Assembly (NCBI GenBank): GCA_016926135.1
Contig: JAFGPH010000637.1
Span: forward strand, 1 to 8,093
DNA from: Deltaproteobacteria bacterium
Lineage (GTDB): Bacteria > Desulfobacterota > DSM-4660 > Desulfatiglandales > HGW-15
Direction: 5' to 3'
Length of the DNA: 8,093 nt
In this document: positions 1-8,093 of the stretch, in pieces
Position numbering within the stretch: position 1 is the stretch's first letter
How the letters are laid out: each line of letters starts with the position of its first letter
The notes under the pieces: model-generated
What the model was told of the DNA's origin: nothing
Seen by the model: the letters and a program-made list of their open reading frames with translations, nothing else
Database searches by the model: none
Program-made: the position numbers and the translations under genes

Positions 1-528
1 AGCGCCCCCGACATGATCCTGTCCGGCATCAACCTGGGGGCGAATGTGGGTGTAAATGTGCTCTACTCGGGAACGGTCTCCGCGGCCACGGAGGGGGCTT
101 TTCTGGGGATTCGATCGGCCGCCATGTCCCTGGATACGAGAGAGAACCCCGATTTCCGGTTTGCCGCGCGATTCAGCCGGGAAATCATCCGCTTCATCCT
201 TCAGGTCGGCCTCAGGGAGCGGACGGCGCTCAATGTGAACTTGCCGGCGCTCCCGATCGAACAGATCGCCGGTGTCAGGATCACCAGGCAGGGCGTTGGC
301 AGGTTCAAGGAGAGATTCGACAAACGCACGGATCCGCGGGGAAACATCTACTACTGGCTCTCGGGTGAGAAACCCGCCGAAGAGGGCATTGCCGATTCCG
401 ATGCCGAGGCACTGAAAGAGAGATGGATCTCCATTACCCCGGTGAGCTATGACCTGACCTGTATGCCGGAAGTGGAGCGGTTGAGGGGGTGTCAACTGCC
501 CGATCCCAAAAGGCCGGCAGGTGACTGA
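1..528 (+). CDS. surE: 5'/3'-nucleotidase SurE, C-terminal part (5' end outside window)
   Basis: SurE is a cytoplasmic, divalent-metal-dependent phosphatase that removes phosphate from nucleoside monophosphates and belongs to stationary-phase survival functions. The frame is open from base 1 and ends at TGA 526-528, giving 175 residues. The first visible residues include SGIN, whose Asn (about fragment residue 11) matches the fourth metal ligand of the family. YSGTVSAATEG follows, equivalent to the conserved YSGTVAAAMEG-type motif, and then a C-terminal block ending in PVSYDLT, typical of SurE. By comparison with full-length SurE (about 250 residues), roughly the first 80 residues, including the Asp-Asp and Ser metal ligands, lie upstream. 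The ATG at 13 is internal and not the start. The next gene on the same strand begins 125 bases later and could be co-transcribed. Identification is firm; completeness of the gene cannot be judged. Confidence 0.95.
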   Translation, partial: SAPDMILSGINLGANVGVNVLYSGTVSAATEGAFLGIRSAAMSLDTRENPDFRFAARFSREIIRFILQVGLRERTALNVNLPALPIEQIAGVRITRQGVGRFKERFDKRTDPRGNIYYWLSGEKPAEEGIADSDAEALKERWISITPVSYDLTCMPEVERLRGCQLPDPKRPAGD

Positions 529-530
529 AA

Positions 531-616
531 GGTGCAAGGTGCACGGCACGCGGTGCAAGGAAGAGAAGAAACCATTTGTGAAACCTTGTTGGACCCTGGA
601 CCTTTGTTTGCCTTGT
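531..616. repeat. Degenerate GGTGCAAGG / CCTTGT intergenic repeat
   Basis: Between surE and the Nudix gene, GGTGCAAGG occurs at 531-539 and again at 552-560, 21 bases apart. CCTTGT occurs at 584-589 and 611-616. CAAGG and CCTTG are complementary, so the copies form nested imperfect inverted repeats. A small perfect GTGC-ACG-GCAC hairpin lies at 539-549. No coding frame on either strand here looks real. This may be a fragment of an interspersed intergenic repeat family, but copies elsewhere in the genome cannot be seen. Confidence 0.35.
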
Positions 617-653
617 ATCTGACCGTTTTTGAGCCACCTGCTGAAGGAGGCAG

Positions 654-1202
654 ATGAAACAGCGGAGTATCAGGCGGGAATATCCGGAAGGCCCGGTCGT
701 TGGAGTGGGGGCCGTCATTTTTGACGGAGACCGGGTCCTCCTGGCGCGGAGAAACCATGAACCGGGAAAAGGGATATGGACGCTTCCCGGCGGTGTGGTG
801 GAATTGGGGGAAACCCTCGAGGAGGCCCTTCGGCGGGAAATTCTGGAAGAGACCTCCCTGACCATTGAGATCGGCGGTCTGGCGAAGCTGCTGGACCGGA
901 TCGTCCACGACGGGAAACAGGCCGTCCGGTATCACTACGTGATTGCGGATTACTGGGGATGGAAGGTTTCCGGGACGCTTCGGCCCGGTTCCGATGCGGG
1001 CGACGCCCGGTTTGTCCCGCTGGGGGAAATCCCCTCCCTGGGACTCCATGCAGAGGTCGTGGAGACAATTCATACCGCAGTGAGAATGAGGCAGGAGTCA
1101 CGCAACCGCCTTTTTCAGCTCCGCATAGACCCTGTCCAGGGCCAGGATTCTTTTGAAAAGGGAAAGGCAGATGTTGGCCATCAAACGAAAGGAAAGGTCT
1201 GA
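654..1202 (+). CDS. Nudix hydrolase (ADP-ribose pyrophosphatase-like)
   Basis: Nudix enzymes hydrolyse a nucleoside diphosphate linked to another group, using metal ions held by the Nudix helix. Translation begins at ATG 654, with AAGGAGG at 644-650 in front. The Nudix box G-x5-E-x7-REUxEExGU spans residues 47-69: G47, E53, R61-E62, E65-E66. The usual Gly near the end is Ser (S68). The domain start (VVGVGAVIF) and the later block GSDAGDARFVPLGEIP (residues 112-127) resemble the small ADP-ribose pyrophosphatase/NUDT-like group, but substrate is not readable from sequence. Domain homology seems to end near residue 147. The last 34 or so residues are translated from the antisense of the facing minus-strand gene, an overlap of about 105 bases, and look like a read-through tail. 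It may be co-transcribed with surE, another nucleotide-cleaving enzyme. Confidence 0.9.
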   Translation: MKQRSIRREYPEGPVVGVGAVIFDGDRVLLARRNHEPGKGIWTLPGGVVELGETLEEALRREILEETSLTIEIGGLAKLLDRIVHDGKQAVRYHYVIADYWGWKVSGTLRPGSDAGDARFVPLGEIPSLGLHAEVVETIHTAVRMRQESRNRLFQLRIDPVQGQDSFEKGKADVGHQTKGKV

Positions 1203-3668
1203 CCGGCTCAGCAGGGAATCGTTGAAGGATTTTTTGTCCACAAAGGCGAGCTTGCAGGGTGTGATGGTCGTAATGCCGGCCGATCTGGGCTTGTCGTCGA
1301 TCAGGGCCATTTCGCCGAAGATGTCTCCTTTGCCCATTTCTCCCAGGGTGATCTCATCGAAGCGTTCCGAAAAGGTGATGACCTTCACCCTCCCTTCCAG
1401 AATCATGTACGCGCCGTCTCCCGCATCTCCCTCAGCGAAAACGAGCGCGCCCGGGCCGTACTCCCGGATCTCCCGGAATACGCTGAGGGCCTCTTCCAGC
1501 GTGATGGCAGGCAGCCATTCCCCCTTGGTGCCGAGAGCGATGTCCGCTTCCCCGGGCACTTCGGGTCCGTCGCCGTTGCGGTCCAGGAAAAGATAGAGTG
1601 CATTGAAGGCGGTCCTGTATTTCTCGTTCAGGTTTCTCAGCCTCTCCGGAAGGATGTTGTATAGGCGGTAGATGAGATCGTAGGTGTGAGGCCGACCCGT
1701 CAGGAGCAGGGACTCAAAGGCTTCTCTGTCGAGCACGCCGATGCGTGCAGCGTCTGTGGCGGCCACGATGGTGGCGGTTCGGGCCACGTTATAGAAGAGA
1801 CTGATCTCCCCGAATATTTCCCCGGGCCCCAGGGTCGCCAAGGGGGTATCGTCGATCAGGACCGTGACTTCCCCCTCCTTGATATAGTACATGGCCTGGC
1901 CGGGTGTGTGCTGCCGGCAGATGACTTCTCCTTTCCCGTAGGTCTCGGTTTTCGAGAAGATCTTGTCCAGATGCTCGTTGTTCAACGTGCCGAAAAGGGC
2001 GCCGCTGATGTTCTGGCAGATCAAGTCCAGCTCACTCTTCTCCAGCACCCCGCGCTCGCTCTGTACGGGCAACAGCAGGTCGTCGATGTATTCAATCAGG
2101 TCATTCCGGAACTTGAGCGGCATTCTCATGAAGGCCGTGGAAATTTTTTTCGCCTCCTCCACGGAGAGGGACTTCTGTTCCTGGATCTTTCTGAATACGA
2201 GATACTCCTTGAGGGCCGGGAGGCCGAAGAGGCCGGCCAGGAAAAGGTAGGGCCTCTTTTTCCGGATCGACGGCGGGATCAGGGGTTCAAACCCCAGGGA
2301 GTTCATCTCTTCCGCCCCCCTGGACACCCAAGACTCGTAGGGGCCTTCCAGGGGTTCGGTCTGGGCCTCATGGATGAGGAGGATGTCTTCACGCGTGAGA
2401 GGCTGGATCTGTTCGGCCACCACGTCAAAGTGGTGCCCCATGCTGCGAAGGAGCTTGATGATGGCGGTGTTGTTGATCCCTCGACCGGAAACATTGCTGT
2501 GAACGTCGGCGCTGTAGGCCGGCGGGGTGAAGAGGAGCCTCCCGTAGTTGTCCGTAGCATGAAGTCGCAGGGGCACCCCTTTGGCGAGACACCAGAGGCC
2601 GATTCTCTCGGCGCCTTCCAGGGGGTCTTCCCCCTCAATGTTGAGGTGTCCCACATCGAGGGTGATTCCGAAATTGGTTTTGAGCACATCCTCCGGCAGG
2701 TGACTCATGATCTCCTCCACACCGGCGAGGAAGGGCCCCGAGCTCTGGAGGCAGGGGGTCTGGCAGTAGTTCTCGAAGGTGACGCGCACTCCGCTGCCCC
2801 CGGACCTGGCGACCAGTTTGGCCATCTCGGCCGGGCGCGACGGATCGATGAGGTGAATCACGACCGCCCCTGCGCCGATATCGCGCGCCAGGTCGATGGT
2901 TTCGCACTGAACCCTGAAGCATTTCAAGGGATCGAAGAAGAGCTGGCGGCCTTTTCGCGGGTCGGGAAAGGGCGCGTAAGGGCCTACGATGGGTGAATGG
3001 ATATCGATTTTGAGCCCTGCTTTCAGGGCGGCCTCCCGGATCTGTCTCCGTTTTTCCGGGGAGAATTCCTCGGGAAGGAGCTTCCGATAATTGAACGGGT
3101 GGAAGTCCACACTCAGTTCGCACCCCAGCAGGTTTTCACGCCTGGCCTTGTCCAGGAGGGCCAGGGGATCGAAGGTCTGGTTTTCCCAGAAGGTGACCCC
3201 GATCACACGCCAGGGCTGAAGGAGCTTTTCCCACTGATCCGTGGGCAGACGGTTCAGGAGAAACTGCTGCTCATACTCTTCGGCGAATCTTGTGATGAGG
3301 GAATCCAGATCCCTGGAGGATGCCTCGTTGCGGAAGAGATAGTAAGGCGCGTGCTCGTAGATCCAGCCCGCCTTCATGAGGAAGAGCGGGGACTGCGCGA
3401 GTCGGCGCAGAGGACTGTCAGGGGAAGCTTCTCCCGCCATCCCGAGAAGATGGGAGACGGTCTCGGGGGAAAGGGTGTAGCCGTACTTGGCCATGGAGCT
3501 GTGGCGGGCGAGCAGCAGGAGGGCCTCGTCCCCGGAAAGACCCAATCGGCGAAGATCCCGGCGGCTTTTCCGTGCGTAAAAGTCCGTCTCCCGAAGGCCG
3601 GAGTCCAAGGTTCTGCGGACTGATTCATCCTCGAAACCCGGCTCTCCGATTCCCACTGTATTCACCAT
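1098..3668 (-). CDS. TIM-barrel (AP endonuclease 2/xylose isomerase-like) protein fused to two cyclic-nucleotide-binding domains
   Basis: An 856-residue, probably cytoplasmic protein of unknown function. Residues 1-150 are helix-rich and unrecognised. Residues 152-440 form a TIM barrel of the sugar-phosphate isomerase/endonuclease IV superfamily, with candidate metal ligands H224, H272, E299, D338, H341, H370, D388, H390 and E419; their spacing closely follows the nine ligands of E. coli endonuclease IV. Residues 455-560 are a helical linker with a hydrophobic stretch at about 474-492. Two cNMP-binding domains follow, about 562-657 and 723-818. Their phosphate-binding cassettes keep Gly-Glu and Arg: G620/E621/R630 (ARTATI) and G785/E786/R795 (PRSAG). 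An EF-hand-like DRNGDG loop lies between them at 696-707. A short helix ends the protein. The ATG at 3668 is 28 bases after the lepB stop, so the two are probably one operon. SD-like GGGCAGG is very close to the ATG, while the stronger GGAGGG lies 18 bases upstream. The domain calls are strong; the enzymatic reaction is unknown. Confidence 0.88.
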   Translation of the reverse strand: MVNTVGIGEPGFEDESVRRTLDSGLRETDFYARKSRRDLRRLGLSGDEALLLLARHSSMAKYGYTLSPETVSHLLGMAGEASPDSPLRRLAQSPLFLMKAGWIYEHAPYYLFRNEASSRDLDSLITRFAEEYEQQFLLNRLPTDQWEKLLQPWRVIGVTFWENQTFDPLALLDKARRENLLGCELSVDFHPFNYRKLLPEEFSPEKRRQIREAALKAGLKIDIHSPIVGPYAPFPDPRKGRQLFFDPLKCFRVQCETIDLARDIGAGAVVIHLIDPSRPAEMAKLVARSGGSGVRVTFENYCQTPCLQSSGPFLAGVEEIMSHLPEDVLKTNFGITLDVGHLNIEGEDPLEGAERIGLWCLAKGVPLRLHATDNYGRLLFTPPAYSADVHSNVSGRGINNTAIIKLLRSMGHHFDVVAEQIQPLTREDILLIHEAQTEPLEGPYESWVSRGAEEMNSLGFEPLIPPSIRKKRPYLFLAGLFGLPALKEYLVFRKIQEQKSLSVEEAKKISTAFMRMPLKFRNDLIEYIDDLLLPVQSERGVLEKSELDLICQNISGALFGTLNNEHLDKIFSKTETYGKGEVICRQHTPGQAMYYIKEGEVTVLIDDTPLATLGPGEIFGEISLFYNVARTATIVAATDAARIGVLDREAFESLLLTGRPHTYDLIYRLYNILPERLRNLNEKYRTAFNALYLFLDRNGDGPEVPGEADIALGTKGEWLPAITLEEALSVFREIREYGPGALVFAEGDAGDGAYMILEGRVKVITFSERFDEITLGEMGKGDIFGEMALIDDKPRSAGITTITPCKLAFVDKKSFNDSLLSRSDLSFRLMANICLSLFKRILALDRVYAELKKAVA

Positions 3669-3696
3669 GACCTGCCCGTGATGCGGCCCTCCAAGC

Positions 3697-4371
3697 TCAG
3701 TGAATGAGACGGAAGCACCTTTTCCAGTGCGGCCACGACCAGTAGACGATGAACGCCTTTCCTTTGACGGACTTGGCGGGTACGAAGCCCCAGAATCTGC
3801 TGTCGTAACTGTGGTCCCGGTTGTCCCCCATCACGAAGATCTGATTCTCCGGCACCGTGACGGGACCAAACGGGTTGCCGCCCCCTGAAGGGTTTCCCTT
3901 GCCTTGGTTGAGGCTGTATTGTCCAAACTTGTCCTCGTATATCGTTCCATTAATATAGATCTTGCCGCCCCGGATCTCGATGGTTTCCCCCGGCAGGCCG
4001 ATGACCCGCTTGATGAAATCCTTGGTCCTGTCCACCGGATAAATGAACACCACCACATCGTCTCGCTGGGGATCGCCAAGGGGAATGAGGGTCTTCTGCG
4101 TGAAAGGAATTTTGATGCCGTAAATGAACTTGCTGACCAGGATGTGATCGCCGATCAATAGGGTAGGTTCCATGGAGCCGGAGGGTATTTTGAATGCCTG
4201 CACTACGAAGGTCCTGATGAAGAGGGCCAGCAATACGGCGATTGCAGCGGCTTCCAGGTACTCCCATAGCACATTCTTCTTTACAGGTTTTGAATCGACC
4301 CTTTTTGTCTTCAAGAAAATCTCACGATCAAGATGTCGGCAAATAAGGATGGAGCCCGGTTCCGGTGCCAT
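3697..4371 (-). CDS. lepB: Signal peptidase I
   Basis: Type I signal peptidase, an inner-membrane serine/lysine protease that removes signal peptides from exported proteins on the periplasmic side. One membrane segment lies at about residues 39-58. It is followed by IPSGSMEPT with catalytic Ser66, then IKRVIGLPGE with general-base Lys121, and the signature GDNRDHSYDSRFWG at 182-195. A Gly/Asn-rich insertion (about 155-170) precedes the last box. The 224-residue length is normal for the compact bacterial form. The ATG at 4371 has no clear ribosome binding site. An in-frame TTG at 4314 (residue 20, 205-residue product) would begin just before the basic KTKR stretch, as is usual for LepB, and may be the real start. 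It is the first gene of a minus-strand pair with the TIM-barrel/cNMP protein downstream and is divergent from the pilus operon. Confidence 0.96.
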   Translation of the reverse strand: MAPEPGSILICRHLDREIFLKTKRVDSKPVKKNVLWEYLEAAAIAVLLALFIRTFVVQAFKIPSGSMEPTLLIGDHILVSKFIYGIKIPFTQKTLIPLGDPQRDDVVVFIYPVDRTKDFIKRVIGLPGETIEIRGGKIYINGTIYEDKFGQYSLNQGKGNPSGGGNPFGPVTVPENQIFVMGDNRDHSYDSRFWGFVPAKSVKGKAFIVYWSWPHWKRCFRLIH

Positions 4372-4414
4372 GCTGTCGGCGGATCATTCAGAGGGCTCCC
4401 TGAAAACAGGGCAC

Positions 4415-4444
4415 AATCTAATCTCAGCCGTGCAGGTTTGTAAA
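4415..4444 (-). promoter_or_regulatory. Possible lepB promoter
   Basis: On the minus strand TTTACA (4444-4439) and TAGATT (4420-4415) are separated by 18 bases, a moderate match to sigma-70 -35 and -10 boxes. Transcription would begin near 4408, some 37 bases before ATG 4371 or 94 bases before TTG 4314. No better-matched pair with allowed spacing was found for this direction. Tentative. Confidence 0.3.
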
Positions 4445-4480
4445 GGGATTTCTGTCCTTTGGCTTCTCAACGGGCCGTGA

Positions 4481-4522
4481 GGGCATACACAATATGTAGT
4501 GAGCGCTTATCATATTATGCCC
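4481..4522. promoter_or_regulatory. Interrupted inverted repeat in the lepB/pil divergent region
   Basis: GGGCATA at 4481-4487 is exactly complementary to TATGCCC at 4516-4522. Inside it, ATATG at 4492-4496 pairs with CATAT at 4511-4515, and the loop holds the self-complementary AGCGCT (4502-4507). No T-run follows on either strand, so it does not look like an intrinsic terminator. Its place upstream of both divergent transcription units suits a regulator binding site or a structured DNA element; function is inferred only. Confidence 0.4.
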
Positions 4523-4570
4523 TATATATACACAAATTATGTCAATTTTAGTTAATTTATAGAAAAATAC

Positions 4571-4598
4571 TTGACAAATATTAACATATATGTATGAT
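4571..4598 (+). promoter_or_regulatory. Sigma-70-type promoter for the HTH-pilMNOPQ operon
   Basis: A perfect -35 box TTGACA (4571-4576) is followed by 16 bases and then TATGAT (4593-4598), five of six matches to the -10 consensus. It sits in the most AT-rich part of the window, immediately before the regulator gene and pilM. The predicted transcript start is near 4605, which rules out the ATG at 4590 as a start codon for this transcript. Confidence 0.7.
4584..4593. promoter_or_regulatory. Perfect palindrome in the promoter spacer (candidate operator)
   Basis: ACATATATGT reads the same on both strands and fills much of the spacer, touching the first base of the -10 box. A dimeric helix-turn-helix repressor bound here would block RNA polymerase. 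The small XRE-type protein encoded just downstream is the obvious candidate for autoregulation. A 10-bp AT-rich palindrome can occur by chance, so this stays a hypothesis. Confidence 0.35.
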
Positions 4599-4642
4599 AG
4601 TGCGCAATCGAGCAGGGAAGAATTGTGGTTCAACGAGAATCT

Positions 4643-4647
4643 GGAGG
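4643..4647 (+). promoter_or_regulatory. Shine-Dalgarno GGAGG fixing the HTH gene start
   Basis: GGAGG at 4643-4647 ends 5 bases before TTG 4653, ideal spacing. It is the best ribosome binding site downstream of the predicted transcript start that still leaves the whole helix-turn-helix domain in the product. Confidence 0.5.
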
Positions 4648-4652
4648 AGAAA

Positions 4653-4859
4653 TTGGGCCAAAACATTGTCAAAGAGATCAGAGAGGAGCTCTTGATGAGT
4701 AAGGCCGAGCTTGCCAGAAAAGCAGGGGTATCCCCTTTGACGATCGACAGGATTGAGAAAGGCAAGAGCTGCCGGATGGAGACGAGGCGCAAGATCATCC
4801 TGGCGCTTGGCTACAAGCTCTCGGACAAGGACAGAATATTCCCTGAGTCCTTAAGGTAG
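4653..4859 (+). CDS. Small XRE/Cro-type helix-turn-helix regulator
   Basis: A DNA-binding protein of about 68 residues, almost entirely one HTH domain. Counting from TTG 4653, helix 1 is NIVKEIREELL, helix 2 is KAELARKAG, and recognition helix 3 is SPLTIDRIEKG, the usual XRE pattern. The tail contains CRMETRRKIILALG followed by a short acidic/basic end. The frame is open back to ATG 4590, but that codon overlaps the promoter's -10 box, so I chose TTG 4653 with GGAGG in front. TTG 4623 is also possible. ATG 4695 has a good GAGGAG but would lose helix 1. The stop at 4857-4859 is 9 bases before pilM, so the gene is probably first in the pilus operon. Role inferred: local regulator of pilMNOPQ and perhaps of itself. 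Family call strong, target unproven. Confidence 0.85.
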   Translation: MGQNIVKEIREELLMSKAELARKAGVSPLTIDRIEKGKSCRMETRRKIILALGYKLSDKDRIFPESLR

Positions 4860-4868
4860 GTTGAAAAT

Positions 4869-5975
4869 ATGCCTATTGCAAAAAAATACCAGATTGTAGG
4901 TTTGGACATAGGTTCCCATGCCATCAAGCTTGTCGAGATCGAGGATACCAAGAAAGGAATGGTCCTGAAGAATGTAGGGATCATTGGCCTGCCCCGTGAT
5001 GCGATTGTGGAGGGCGCAGTCAAGGAAATGGATATCGTCTCCGCAGCGATCAAGGCCCTGTTCAAGAATCTCAAGATCAGCAACAGAAATGTTGCGACCT
5101 CCATCTCCGGCTACTCCGTCATCGTCAAGAAGATCAGCCTTACCAGGCGGGCGGAATCCGAGCTGGAAGGCACCATCCACGAGGAGGCGGAACAGTACAT
5201 CCCCTTTGACATCCATGACGTGAATCTGGACTTCGAGATCCTTTCCGAGCCGGAGGAAACGGAGGGAGAAGCGGGAGGGGAGAAGGAAGGGAAGAGCAGG
5301 AGGGAAGAGTCGGGCATGATGGACGTCATGCTGGTGGCCGCCAAGAAGGATATCGTGGAAGACTATGTGAGCCTTCTGCAGGCATCGGGTTACAATCCCG
5401 TGATCCTGGACGTGGATGCCTTTGCGCTCCAGAACGCCTTTGAACTCAGCTTCGAGAAAACCACCGGATGTTTTGCCCTCGTGAATGTGGGGGCTGAAGA
5501 ACTGGGAATCAACGTGATCAAGAACGGGGTGTCCATCTTCACCAGAGACTCTTCCTATGGCGGCTTCCAGATCAACGAGGGAATCATGTCGAAATTCAAA
5601 GTCGCTTACGAGGAGGCCGAAAAGATCAAGCTGGGCGGGACCAAGGTGGAGAGCAAAGACAAGGGAAAGCTGGAGGAGGTTTTCACCTCGGTGATCTCGG
5701 GGTGGGTAAACGAGATCAAACGGGCCCTGGACTTCCTGGTCACCACGTATCCCGATGAGACCATCGAGAAGGTGTTCGTCAGCGGAGGATCCTCCCGGAT
5801 TCCCGGATTCCAGAAGGTCCTGGAGGTGGAAACCGGTATCCCGGTCGAGGAGTTGAACCCTTTTGCCAATTTGCAGATCAATGAGAAGCTTTTCGACCCC
5901 AAGTACCTCAGCTACATGGCCCCCCAGGCCGCCGTCGCCGTGGGCCTGGCGTTGAGGAGCATAGGTGACAAATGA
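4869..5975 (+). CDS. pilM: Type IV pilus assembly protein PilM (actin-like ATPase)
   Basis: PilM is a cytoplasmic actin-fold protein that binds the N-terminal tail of PilN and links the pilus motor to the inner-membrane platform. The 368-residue product shows the FtsA/PilM phosphate-1 motif GLDIGSHAIKLVEI (residues 11-24), the conserved EEAEQYIPFDI (105-115), phosphate-2 LVNVGAEELGINVI (204-217) and the adenosine motif VFVSGGSSRIPGF (302-314). It ends with the usual AAVAVGLALRS. Length is normal, apart from a highly charged Glu/Gly/Lys/Arg insertion at about 127-149 encoded by a nearly all-purine stretch. AAGGTAGG lies just before ATG 4869. The stop overlaps the pilN start (ATGA), implying translational coupling. 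Identification is secure. Confidence 0.97.
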   Translation: MPIAKKYQIVGLDIGSHAIKLVEIEDTKKGMVLKNVGIIGLPRDAIVEGAVKEMDIVSAAIKALFKNLKISNRNVATSISGYSVIVKKISLTRRAESELEGTIHEEAEQYIPFDIHDVNLDFEILSEPEETEGEAGGEKEGKSRREESGMMDVMLVAAKKDIVEDYVSLLQASGYNPVILDVDAFALQNAFELSFEKTTGCFALVNVGAEELGINVIKNGVSIFTRDSSYGGFQINEGIMSKFKVAYEEAEKIKLGGTKVESKDKGKLEEVFTSVISGWVNEIKRALDFLVTTYPDETIEKVFVSGGSSRIPGFQKVLEVETGIPVEELNPFANLQINEKLFDPKYLSYMAPQAAVAVGLALRSIGDK

Positions 5976-6565
5976 TCAAGATCAATCTTCTGCCCTTCAG
6001 GGCTGCCAAGAAGAGAGAGAACATCAAGAGACAGATCACCATTTTCTTCGGCGTGGTGGTGGCTCTCTTGTTGGCGATGACCTACTTCTTCATTAACCTG
6101 AACAGCGAGCTGACGGCGCTTCAGACTCAGCAGAAGCAGCTGAGCGACGAACTGGCCGGCTATGAGAAAACCCTGGCGAGGATCGCCGAACTCGAAAAGA
6201 AGAGCAAAGAGATCAAAAGCAAGCTGGACGTCATCAAGGACCTGGAAAAGAAGAAAACGGGGCCGATTCTCCTTCTCGATGAAATTGCCATGGCGGTTCC
6301 CAAGGACAAGCTCTGGCTTACCTCCCTGTCCGAGACGGCGGGCGTTCTGAAACTCACCGGGACCGCGATGGACAATGAGACCGTGGCCCTTTTCATGACG
6401 AACCTGGAGAAGTCGCCCCACATCACCTCGGTGGAGCTGCAAAGCGCCAGGCTTACGAATCTGGCCCAGTACAGGTTAAATGTGTCTGATTTCACATTGG
6501 AATGTAAGACCTATGCGTTCAAGGAGAAACCAAAAGCAGCCCCTAAGCCCGCTCGGAAGAGGTAG
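5972..6565 (+). CDS. pilN: Type IV pilus inner-membrane assembly protein PilN
   Basis: PilN is a bitopic inner-membrane protein: its short cytoplasmic tail docks in PilM and its periplasmic part pairs with PilO. The diagnostic PilM-binding motif INLLPFR is at residues 4-10. It is followed by a basic stretch, a membrane segment at about 22-42, a coiled coil at about 44-95 rich in Glu/Lys/Leu, and a ferredoxin-like domain at about 98-183. The end is a Lys/Pro/Ala/Arg-rich tail. The 197-residue length is normal. The start overlaps the pilM stop by 4 bases; AGGTGA (5963-5968) or GAGGAG (5954-5959) inside pilM can serve as ribosome binding site. A 37-base gap separates it from pilO. Confidence 0.96.
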   Translation: MIKINLLPFRAAKKRENIKRQITIFFGVVVALLLAMTYFFINLNSELTALQTQQKQLSDELAGYEKTLARIAELEKKSKEIKSKLDVIKDLEKKKTGPILLLDEIAMAVPKDKLWLTSLSETAGVLKLTGTAMDNETVALFMTNLEKSPHITSVELQSARLTNLAQYRLNVSDFTLECKTYAFKEKPKAAPKPARKR

Positions 6566-6578
6566 CTGCGCTTCCTAA

Positions 6579-6592
6579 CCCTTCGACAAGGG
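6579..6592 (+). promoter_or_regulatory. Small hairpin overlapping the likely pilO ribosome binding site
   Basis: CCCTT (6579-6583), loop CGAC, AAGGG (6588-6592) form a perfect 5-bp stem. Its right arm overlaps AAGGGG (6588-6593), the best-spaced SD sequence for ATG 6603 (9 bases away). A second SD-like AGAGG at 6597-6601 is almost against the ATG and poorly spaced. Folding could reduce pilO translation; the stem is short, so the effect may be nil. Confidence 0.3.
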
Positions 6593-6602
6593 GATCAGAG
6601 GA

Positions 6603-7199
6603 ATGGAATCCGGAGCTTTTTTAGAGAAGATTGAAAAGATCAAGATGCCTGTCAGGATTGTCATCCTGGTTGGGACCGTGGTTGTGCTGGCGGGGTTGTT
6701 CGTCTGGTTCTATTATCTTCCCCAGATCGAAGCGATCGACAAAACGAAGGCGGAGATCGCCACCATCCAGCTGAAGCTGAACAAGGCCAAGGTCATGGTC
6801 AGGCGCCTGAAGAAGTTTGAGGCCGAGTGGGCGGAACTCGACGCCCAGTACAAAGAGGCGCTGAAACTTCTCCCCAACACCAAAGAAATTCCGACCCTTC
6901 TGAAGACCATCACCCAGTTGGGGAGCGACTCGCAGCTGGAATTCCGCCTCTTCAGCCCTCAGAGGGAAAGGCCCCAGGATTTTTTCATTGAAATCCCTGT
7001 TTCCATAGAAGTGAGCGGCACGTACCATAATGTGGCCGTGTTTTTCGACAAGGTGGGCGCCATGGAGCGTATCGTGAACATTCTGAATGTCTCCATGACC
7101 CCCTCCAAGCCGCGCTCAACGGTTCTGAACACAAAGTGTGATGCCGTAACCTATCGTTTCAAAGGGGAGGGAGATGTCAAACCGGCTCCTAAGAAATAG
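6603..7199 (+). CDS. pilO: Type IV pilus inner-membrane assembly protein PilO
   Basis: PilO is a bitopic inner-membrane protein that dimerises with PilN and contacts PilP, forming the periplasmic part of the alignment complex. The 198 residues comprise a short cytoplasmic tail, a membrane segment at about 16-38 ending in VWFYYLPQ, a coiled coil at about 42-90, and the conserved PilO ferredoxin-like domain at about 92-190. That domain contains LPNTKEIPTLL, EIPVSIEVSGTYHNVAVFFDKV and RIVNI, all typical of the family. The C-terminus is basic (KPAPKK). The end overlaps the pilP start by 26 bases, suggesting coupled translation. Identification is secure. Confidence 0.96.
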   Translation: MESGAFLEKIEKIKMPVRIVILVGTVVVLAGLFVWFYYLPQIEAIDKTKAEIATIQLKLNKAKVMVRRLKKFEAEWAELDAQYKEALKLLPNTKEIPTLLKTITQLGSDSQLEFRLFSPQRERPQDFFIEIPVSIEVSGTYHNVAVFFDKVGAMERIVNILNVSMTPSKPRSTVLNTKCDAVTYRFKGEGDVKPAPKK

Positions 7200-7728
7200 C
7201 GTTTGTCTGGTGTCTCTGCTCGGATGGGTTGCACTGTGCGCCTCCATGGCCTCCGCGGCCCAGGATGTTGTCTACAAGGACAGCATGCCCATGAAGAAGG
7301 TCTTCGAGGACCGGAAGGGTCCCGGAGCGCCTGCGTCTCCTGCCGAGCAGGCTAAGGAAGGCAGGGTCGCATACGATCCCACGGGCAAGACGGACCCGTT
7401 CAAGACCTTTCTGGCGGAACCTCAGGAGGTAGGAGAGGATAAGAAGGTGGCCAGAAGGCCGAAGACCTTCCTGGAGACCGTGGATCTTTCCCAATTGGAA
7501 CTGATCGCGATCGTGGTGGGACCCAAGGGCAATTGGGGCATGGTGCGGGACTCCAAAGGGGTCGGGCATGTGATCCAGAAAGGGACCCTGATCGGAACAA
7601 ACGGCGGGGTGGTCCACGCCATCACGGATAAGGAAGTCACCATCCGGGAGGAATACAAGGATTTCAAGGGAAAGGCTCAATACAAGGACATAGCCAAGAA
7701 ACTACCGGGCCTCCTGGCAGCGCAATAA
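7174..7728 (+). CDS. pilP: Type IV pilus assembly protein PilP (periplasmic, no clear lipobox)
   Basis: PilP bridges PilN/PilO in the inner membrane and the PilQ secretin. The 184-residue product begins at ATG 7174, preceded by a strong purine-rich SD (7162-7173), and overlaps pilO by 26 bases. Residues 1-28 are a signal sequence with a hydrophobic core and an Ala-Ser-Ala site, as for signal peptidase I. The only nearby cysteine (C22, context VALC) has Leu at -1 and is a poor lipobox, unlike the lipoprotein PilP of Pseudomonas or Neisseria. The YDPTGKTDPFKTFL block (67-80) and the beta-rich C-terminal domain (about 98-165, with LSQLELIAIV, GHVIQKGTLIG and VTIREEY) are characteristic of the family. 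A flexible linker lies between signal and domain. Confidence 0.94.
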   Translation: MSNRLLRNSVCLVSLLGWVALCASMASAAQDVVYKDSMPMKKVFEDRKGPGAPASPAEQAKEGRVAYDPTGKTDPFKTFLAEPQEVGEDKKVARRPKTFLETVDLSQLELIAIVVGPKGNWGMVRDSKGVGHVIQKGTLIGTNGGVVHAITDKEVTIREEYKDFKGKAQYKDIAKKLPGLLAAQ

Positions 7729-7796
7729 GGGCCCGAGATTGCTTTCGGGGAGAGCTTTAGGCCGTGAAAAAAACATCTTATGTAAGGAGCACACAT

Positions 7797-8093
7797 ATGG
7801 GGAAGAAGCCGAATCAAGGTACGAGAGGTTCAGTCCTACTCGTATATCTGGCGTTGGGCGCCCTGCTTCTGGGGGGGTGTGCCGCACCCTCGGCATATCA
7901 AACCCAGCCCGGGGAGGCGACGGTTCCCCTCATCCAATCCATGAAGGTGAATCCCTCCCTGGAGCGGACGGTGCTGGAGGTATACGGTACAGGGCCCATA
8001 CCCTACACCGCCTTCCGACTCACGGATCCGCCCCGGATCGTGCTGGATCTCCAGGGCGGGGTTTCGAAGGATCTGCCCCTGCTCTCCGAGGTG
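7797..8093 (+). CDS. pilQ: Type IV pilus secretin PilQ, N-terminal part (3' end outside window)
   Basis: PilQ is the outer-membrane secretin ring through which the pilus passes. Only 99 codons are present, and the frame is open to the end of the window. ATG 7797 has AAGGAG at 7784-7789, 7 bases in front. The N-terminus has basic residues, a hydrophobic core (about 13-25) and a lipobox LGGC with C28 followed by Ala, so the protein is predicted to be lipidated and sent to the outer membrane. From about residue 45 the sequence fits an AMIN domain (peptidoglycan-binding, usual at the start of PilQ): VLEVYGTGPIPYTAFRL followed by DPPRIVLDLQG. Position directly after pilP fits pilMNOPQ order. The secretin domain itself is not visible, so a separate AMIN lipoprotein is a minor alternative. 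Confidence 0.9.
   Translation, partial: MGKKPNQGTRGSVLLVYLALGALLLGGCAAPSAYQTQPGEATVPLIQSMKVNPSLERTVLEVYGTGPIPYTAFRLTDPPRIVLDLQGGVSKDLPLLSEV

Follow-up and report, generated by a model that had tools for sequence, protein, structure and literature searches.

An AP_endonuc_2-type barrel fused to tandem cyclic-nucleotide-binding domains: a putative nucleotide-gated phosphoesterase from a Deltaproteobacteria genome

An 8,093-nucleotide stretch of DNA from a Deltaproteobacteria bacterium (GenBank assembly GCA_016926135.1, contig JAFGPH010000637.1, positions 1 to 8,093; here called the window) carries on its minus strand a fusion gene whose 856-residue product joins, in this order, an N-terminal domain, a predicted metal-binding TIM barrel of the AP_endonuc_2 family, a connector, and two cyclic-nucleotide-binding (cNMP) domains, A and B. 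The reading that we favor, and to which we give about an even chance, is that of a cAMP- or cGMP-gated multi-metal phosphoesterase in a single chain, with a logic like that of Bd1971 from Bdellovibrio. The parts are known, and their combination was not found described outside source annotation, where it is named "CRP-like cAMP-binding protein/sugar phosphate isomerase/epimerase." The openly licensed literature, judged by titles and the starts of abstracts, yielded no published study of the fusion and no characterized protein with this layout, in agreement with an initial annotation of this DNA that was made from the letters alone and had recognized none. It is rare in bacteria for cAMP or cGMP to gate a metabolic or phosphoesterase barrel directly, and cyclic nucleotide signaling there is viewed mostly as transcriptional. 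If the favored reading is true, a second barrel fold would join the short list whose solved case is Bd1971, and the family would offer a handle on the role of cAMP in uncultured Desulfobacterota-type bacteria, with several cyclase domains per carrier genome.

A single frame conserved in a rare family

The frame opens with an ATG at position 3668 and reaches its stop codon at 1100-1098 with no internal stop (open reading frame analysis), as the initial annotation had described when it reported one uninterrupted frame of 856 residues; the minus strand and the conservation of the N-terminal domain and connector go beyond that description. A plus-strand frame of 436 residues (1686-2996), lying inside the gene on the opposite strand, was taken as a shadow. 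Two stretches of the chain match the Pfam model cNMP_binding (142.5 bits in total against a cut-off of 27.5, E of 4.2e-42), and AP_endonuc_2 (PF01261) matches residues 198-421 with 30.6 bits in the whole protein, slightly below the cut-off of 31.1, and with 34.6 bits, above it, when the barrel is cut out alone. The latter model matches 27 of 27 family barrels at E ≤ 0.01, the window's included, and by this standard the middle part is a predicted AP_endonuc_2 TIM barrel. The Pfam matches and the 240 family matches described below uphold the proposal in the initial annotation that such a putative barrel is joined to two cNMP domains.

Among solved structures, the C-terminal half is best matched by the regulatory chains of PKG and PKA, and the cNMP domain of Bd1971 is also matched; matches of the fusion in PADLOC fall on this cNMP part. 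Residues 661-680, behind domain A, have an average majority-residue share of 0.83 among the listed family proteins, and the segment 661-690 is probably a B/C helix. The N-terminal domain (residues 1-150) has no PDB match at E ≤ 1, and its window sequence has no Pfam match at E ≤ 0.5; S58, K61, K99, W102, H106, and P108 are invariant there in 17 of 17 sequences. The connector (residues 441-560), a candidate coupling or dimerization part, likewise matches no PDB chain at E ≤ 1, and across the family these two regions give scattered weak Pfam matches at most (best E of 0.018). At E ≤ 0.1, Pfam shows only cNMP, AP_endonuc_2, and a weak subthreshold Cupin match in the chain, with no EAL domain and no helix-turn-helix (HTH) of the CRP/FNR type. 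A transcription factor, which in CRP/FNR has its HTH at the C terminus, was rejected on this ground, and a transmembrane or secreted protein was rejected at a highest 19-residue mean hydropathy of just 1.4.

How widespread is the fusion? When some 5.8 billion proteins were searched, 7995 candidates were scored, and 240 of them match the fusion at E ≤ 1e-3; counts of listed proteins here and below use the best 120 of these 240, the window's protein among them. The other listed proteins are 54-82% identical to it across 92-100% of its length, and since 240 proteins match, the listed ones nearly over full length, the fusion is not a product of chance. Lengths fall between 840 and 880 residues in 115 of the 120, and the shorter family matches that were read look truncated. 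A scan that applied two peptide patterns to 84,980 species, each represented by one genome, sets a lower bound and gave at least 71 pattern matches and at least 34 loci, all in metagenome-assembled genomes (MAGs). By their labels, the carriers are Syntrophales, Syntrophobacterales, Smithella, Desulfobacterales, numerous "Deltaproteobacteria," and, in three cases, Lentisphaerae or Lentisphaeria. The fusion family is rare: in whole-genome samples it is carried by 4 of 395 genomes in the phylum and 4 of 155 in the order of the Syntrophales genome G001 (locus L001), and by 6 of 194 in the order of the Desulfobacterales genome G003 (L010); for the Lentisphaerae genome G007, 2 of 288 genomes of its phylum have a match, one of the two being a 30% match to a free-standing barrel. 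Each of eight carrier genomes tested (8/8) holds one full-length copy, and the remaining matches in them cover the cNMP part only.

In the gene tree, which has a midpoint root and leaves out L022, L030, L031, L033, L034, and the duplicate L036, the window gene clusters with L001, L002, L003, and L005 with support of 100/100. The resolution of the tree is too low to infer transfer between phyla, and in its labels the taxonomy mapping puts "Deltaproteobacteria" MAGs under Myxococcota. Plasmid records (72,556) and phage records (50,697) gave no match to residues 1-545 at E ≤ 1e-5, and mobile cargo was rejected on this ground. The base composition of the gene (GC 59.1%; GC at third codon positions [GC3] 76.4%) is inside or slightly over the range of its window neighbors (GC 50.0-59.9%; GC3 65.6-76.3%). 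In L022 and L034 the fusion gene lies in two frames, through decay or assembly error; L031 has a run of N inside the gene and was excluded from counts.

Another question is whether the barrel also occurs without its sensors. A barrel-only search for free-standing close relatives gave 12 matches. Three of them (P0123-P0125) start with the family N-terminal domain and have short or unrelated tails, one of them also lacking a piece of the barrel, and the others were judged from length and Pfam alone. A profile of N-terminal domain plus barrel found 26 shorter proteins, and of nine whose ends were read, six break off early and the other three begin late. A sensor-less form was not recognized among the scored candidates, within a length filter of 0.55-1.75 × 430 residues and the limits set by contig ends.

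Metal ligands and nucleotide pockets

None of the 120 listed proteins departs from the nine predicted metal ligands of the barrel (HHEDHHDHE; Table 1), and neither does any locus frame that reaches the position in question (33 or 34 of 36, the rest being fragment gaps; some of the 36 frames duplicate listed proteins or one another). The barrel was aligned with 32 free-standing proteins from fetched loci: 22 came from a PF01261 search of 30 loci, the other eight of which were fusion copies (four) or outside the printed table (four), and ten came from other searches. In this alignment the fusion ligands fall on the ligand columns of endonuclease IV, namely, H69, H109, E145, D179, H182, H216, D229, H231, and E261, which we take to be metal-binding residues. 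The full set is present in 20 of the 32 references, including all six of the endonuclease IV type, a class defined here by NF002198 at 92.6-124.7 bits, below the model cut-off of 244; one of the six, L087, aligns over almost the entire length with Escherichia coli endonuclease IV (1qtw). Among the 12 references without the full set, two are CbiR proteins with one column gapped although the Asp-His is present. The best NCBIfam model of the other ten is an isomerase or epimerase in eight (psicose, keto-gluconate, ribulose-5-phosphate, hydroxypyruvate, and xylose types), the IolE dehydratase in one, and CbiR in one (35 bits), and none of the ten passes the cut-off, the nearest being L057 (346.2 against 353.45). 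The full ligand set thus distinguishes the endonuclease IV-like part from the rest of the superfamily; most references that have it are of no known role, and the NCBIfam scan covered the ten without it.

The barrel is very probably a metalloenzyme. Since the eight sampled isomerase/epimerase-like barrels lack the full set and the fusion has it, phosphoester chemistry is favored, and we regard it as somewhat more probable than sugar chemistry. The initial annotation had left the choice between a nuclease and a sugar-phosphate isomerase; the nine ligands narrow this choice toward phosphoester chemistry, and model, profile, and motifs, weighed below, speak against endonuclease IV proper. The tight conservation of the active-site loops DFHPFN, HSPIVGPY, HATDNYG, and PPAYSADVH suggests one specific substrate. 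By profile comparison, which is rough, each profile being made from one to six sequences, the closest barrels are ones of no known role with the full set (L041, 96.9%; the L059/L060/L081 group, 96.5%; the L061 group, 93.3%), followed by CbiR (two sequences, 81.0%), with the endonuclease IV group (six sequences) at 12.8%. AP_endonuc_2 barrels are unusually many in the Lentisphaerae genomes G008 and G007 (101 and 72 matches), with 2 to 6 in the other eight carriers searched.

In the C-terminal half, the Gly-Glu...Arg cassettes that the initial annotation had called intact are indeed so, reading FGEISLFYNVARTA (residues 619-632) and FGEMALIDDKPRSA (784-797). The spacing from Glu to Arg is nine residues in both, which is presumably also the spacing in the cassettes of PKA and PKG. 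E621, E786, R795, and S796 are invariant in the 120 listed proteins, and position 631 is divided between Ser (61) and Thr (58), with a single Ile. With PF00027 matched twice and the Glu/Arg pocket in place, both stretches are predicted to be cNMP-binding domains, and it is very likely that at least one of them binds a cyclic nucleotide. Ser or Thr at the pocket position fits cAMP and cGMP alike, and therefore the pocket does not name the ligand.

Do carriers have the means to make such a messenger? Class III cyclase domains were found in 14 of 14 carrier genomes searched, with 2 to 15 matches per genome, versus 5 of 14 control genomes searched with the same model. In a Lentisphaerae MAG (L023:3591-5999), the ATG of a gene encoding a GAF-GAF-PAS-class III cyclase overlaps the stop codon of the fusion gene (TGATG), suggesting that messenger synthesis and sensor are translationally coupled. 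The Lys in the DKYIGDA motif of this cyclase and the Asp in its IGDSVNVASR motif are, we presume, adenylate cyclase-like. The neighbor search with cyclase sequences also matched frames in L004, L006, and L031, of which the L006 frame turned out to be a response regulator with tetratricopeptide repeats.

Proposed gating and alternative readings

Gating by cyclic nucleotide is the likeliest reading of this architecture, and we consider it probable that a nucleotide gates the barrel. In the mechanism that we propose, the endonuclease IV-like barrel would hold up to three divalent metals through its nine His/Asp/Glu residues and would cleave a phosphoester, its substrate being a small molecule, a nucleotide, or a nucleic acid. 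The tandem C-terminal domains would bind a cyclic nucleotide, most likely cAMP and possibly cGMP, and binding would shift their C-terminal helices; this movement, passed on through the connector and the N-terminal domain as likely couplers, would open or order the active site, the presumed direction of control thus being activation. Two tandem sensors could make the gating cooperative or let it respond to two signals.

Bd1971 is a solved precedent for a cNMP-gated barrel enzyme. It is activated by cAMP and cGMP, and its barrel takes on an active state when the cNMP domain binds nucleotide (PMC6717892); the same scheme is the most parsimonious model for the fusion. Like the fusion, whose chemistry is predicted, it unites a cNMP sensor with a metal phosphodiesterase of barrel type in a single chain; unlike the fusion, it has an EAL domain and one N-terminal sensor instead of two C-terminal ones, and it lacks an N-terminal domain or connector of the fusion's kind. 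Endonuclease IV (Nfo), for which three metals are given (PMC5301497), belongs like the fusion barrel to the AP_endonuc_2 family and agrees with it in all nine ligand positions but is a free-standing protein of about 285 residues with no nucleotide sensor, and its TAG and DRH motifs are absent from the fusion. CbiR is alike in superfamily and metal ligands and differs in being free-standing, with genes beside cobamide genes (PMC7733943). The regulatory chains of PKG and PKA have tandem cNMP domains like the fusion but regulate a protein kinase rather than a barrel enzyme.

Several observations weigh against a gated phosphoesterase. The nine-residue set occurs in many uncharacterized barrels and is therefore no proof of phosphoester cleavage. 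In the profile comparison, L051 (xylose-isomerase-like, 76.4%) and L053 (62.4%), both without the full set, beat the endonuclease IV group, and the nearest solved sequence by profile, MJ1311 (3wqo, E of 1.5e-4), is listed as uncharacterized and, with 293 residues, is too short for sensor domains. Source annotation, where present, reads "sugar phosphate isomerase/epimerase." On the sensor side, residue 630 is Arg in 111 of the 120 listed proteins and Lys in the other 9; class III cyclases are common, so that their presence in carriers is weak evidence; and a cyclase gene directly adjoins the fusion in only 1 of 34 loci, many of them with short flanks.

What else could the barrel be? Such annotated names, the many isomerases in PF01261, the score of L051, and the GFO_IDH_MocA plus hexapeptide protein downstream of the fusion in five loci would all suit a cNMP-gated sugar or sugar-phosphate isomerase or epimerase, with one metal at a site of the E299/D338/H370/E419 type and the other residues binding substrate. 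We hold this to be unlikely, given that H224, H272, and D388-x-H390 are invariant in 120 of 120 proteins, that all eight sampled isomerase/epimerase-like barrels lack the full set, and that other such sequences are low by profile (L066, 11.5%; L049/L050, 5.6%; L075, 3.3%; L067, 1.8%; L074, 0.2%; L057, 0.1%). A nucleotide-controlled phosphodiesterase of the CbiR kind, acting on cobamides or a related cofactor, appears quite improbable. Among NCBIfam enzyme models it is CbiR that most barrels match (25 of 27 at E ≤ 0.01), the two CbiR sequences are close by profile, hosts appear to be mostly anaerobes, and CbiR is a metal-dependent phosphodiesterase of the same superfamily (PMC7733943). Against this, the window protein reaches 22.1 bits on NF041277 with a cut-off of 105, by which a plain CbiR was rejected; higher scores, up to 78.5 bits and still below the cut-off, are reached by other free-standing barrels in these genomes, and the likeness to CbiR is therefore generic; and just 2 of 14 carrier genomes have a CbiR above the cut-off. 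An AP endonuclease under cNMP control, or another nuclease of DNA repair, would account for the complete endonuclease IV ligand set and for the weak matches that 6 of 27 barrels give to endonuclease IV models. It would also fit the finding that only 6 of 14 carriers have a strong separate match to one endonuclease IV model (E ≤ 3.3e-26), while of the remaining carriers, whose assemblies may be incomplete, three have weak matches, one has the fusion itself as its only match, and four have none. Such a nuclease is nonetheless very improbable: where all six endonuclease IV-type sequences have the motifs E-(N/T)-TAG and DRH, the fusion has ENYC and DVH, the profile value is the 12.8% given above, and the window protein has no NCBIfam endonuclease IV match at E ≤ 0.01; on these grounds a plain endonuclease IV was rejected.

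The sensors could also be doubted. Some bacterial members of the cNMP fold bind other ligands, and the Lys that replaces R630 in nine proteins would agree with domains that sense no cyclic nucleotide but serve another ligand or assembly, leaving the enzyme constitutive; with E621, E786, and R795 present in every one of the 120 listed proteins and cyclase genes in 14 of 14 carriers searched, this is decidedly unlikely. A further, improbable version of the gated phosphoesterase is a self-limiting enzyme of a new class, whose three-metal barrel would hydrolyze a cyclic or other nucleotide messenger while its cNMP domains switch it by cAMP or cGMP; if true, one signal would be converted into the loss of itself or of another. 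We know of no AP_endonuc_2 enzyme that is gated by a second messenger or degrades one.

Gene neighborhoods

Table 1. Features of the fusion gene and its neighbors in the window
Feature	Position	Strand	Remarks
Fusion gene, 856 aa	1098..3668	-	open frame, Pfam, 240 family matches
N-terminal domain, residues 1-150	3219..3668	-	alignment A5
Predicted AP_endonuc_2 TIM barrel, about residues 150-440	2349..3221	-	from sequence only
Nine predicted metal ligands, H224, H272, E299, D338, H341, H370, D388, H390, E419	2412..2999	-	
Connector, residues 441-560 (~120 aa)	1989..2348	-	conserved, no known family
Predicted cNMP-binding domain A, about residues 565-660	1689..1976	-	cassette 619-632 at 1814-1773
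Segment after domain A, residues 661-690	1599..1688	-	conserved; starts LIYRLYNILPERLRNL
Predicted cNMP-binding domain B, about residues 735-830	1179..1466	-	cassette 784-797 at 1319-1278
SurE	1-528	+	cut by window edge
NUDIX hydrolase	654-1202	+	tail-to-tail with fusion 3' end, 105-nt overlap (1098-1202)
Signal peptidase I (lepB)	3697-4371	-	directly upstream of fusion, same strand, 28-nt gap
Small HTH_3 protein	4590-4859	+	between lepB and pilM
pilM-N-O-P, then start of AMIN protein	4869-8093	+	

In the window, lepB and the fusion gene are probably cotranscribed. A lepB-like gene lies upstream on the same strand in 8 of 36 neighborhoods, many of them with short flanks: the window, L017, L018, L019, L021, L022, L028, and L031, the last of which retains only part of the fusion gene. 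Because the window and those other lepB loci that are in the tree lie on different sides of it, the lepB-fusion order may be ancestral. Pil genes are divergent in the window, L017, L018, L021, and L022. On the other flank, a NusG-like gene is found downstream of the fusion in seven loci, L017-L022 and L028 (by scan in L018 and L028, by clustering in the rest); six of them fall in one clade, and the seventh, L022, is not in the tree. A gene for a GFO_IDH_MocA plus hexapeptide protein comes after the NusG-like gene in five loci (by scan in L021, by clustering in the others), and a polysaccharide operon may begin here.

A search of the 36 neighborhoods for a conserved operon partner from which the substrate might be named found none, and no gene of cobamide synthesis turned up among the annotated neighbors, part of which were scanned; a B12-binding radical SAM gene lies near the fusion in L008. 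Signaling genes surround several fusion loci and are suggestive only as to nucleotide signaling. A Ser/Thr kinase with a cNMP domain is encoded near the fusion at L009:3251-4642 (Pfam) and, by clustering, at L011:12581-13972 and L013:11118-12515 (minus strand), with what would be the layout of a bacterial counterpart to a cyclic-nucleotide-dependent kinase. A PAS protein is encoded nearby in L010, with clustered genes in L012, L014, and L016, and a GGDEF protein in L005. In two related loci, a UshA-like 5'-nucleotidase gene lies upstream of the fusion (L012:8089-9798, Pfam; L032:1788-3488, clustering). The window itself has SurE and NUDIX nearby, and an 82-residue frame at L018:8718-8966 holds a position similar to that of the window HTH_3 gene.

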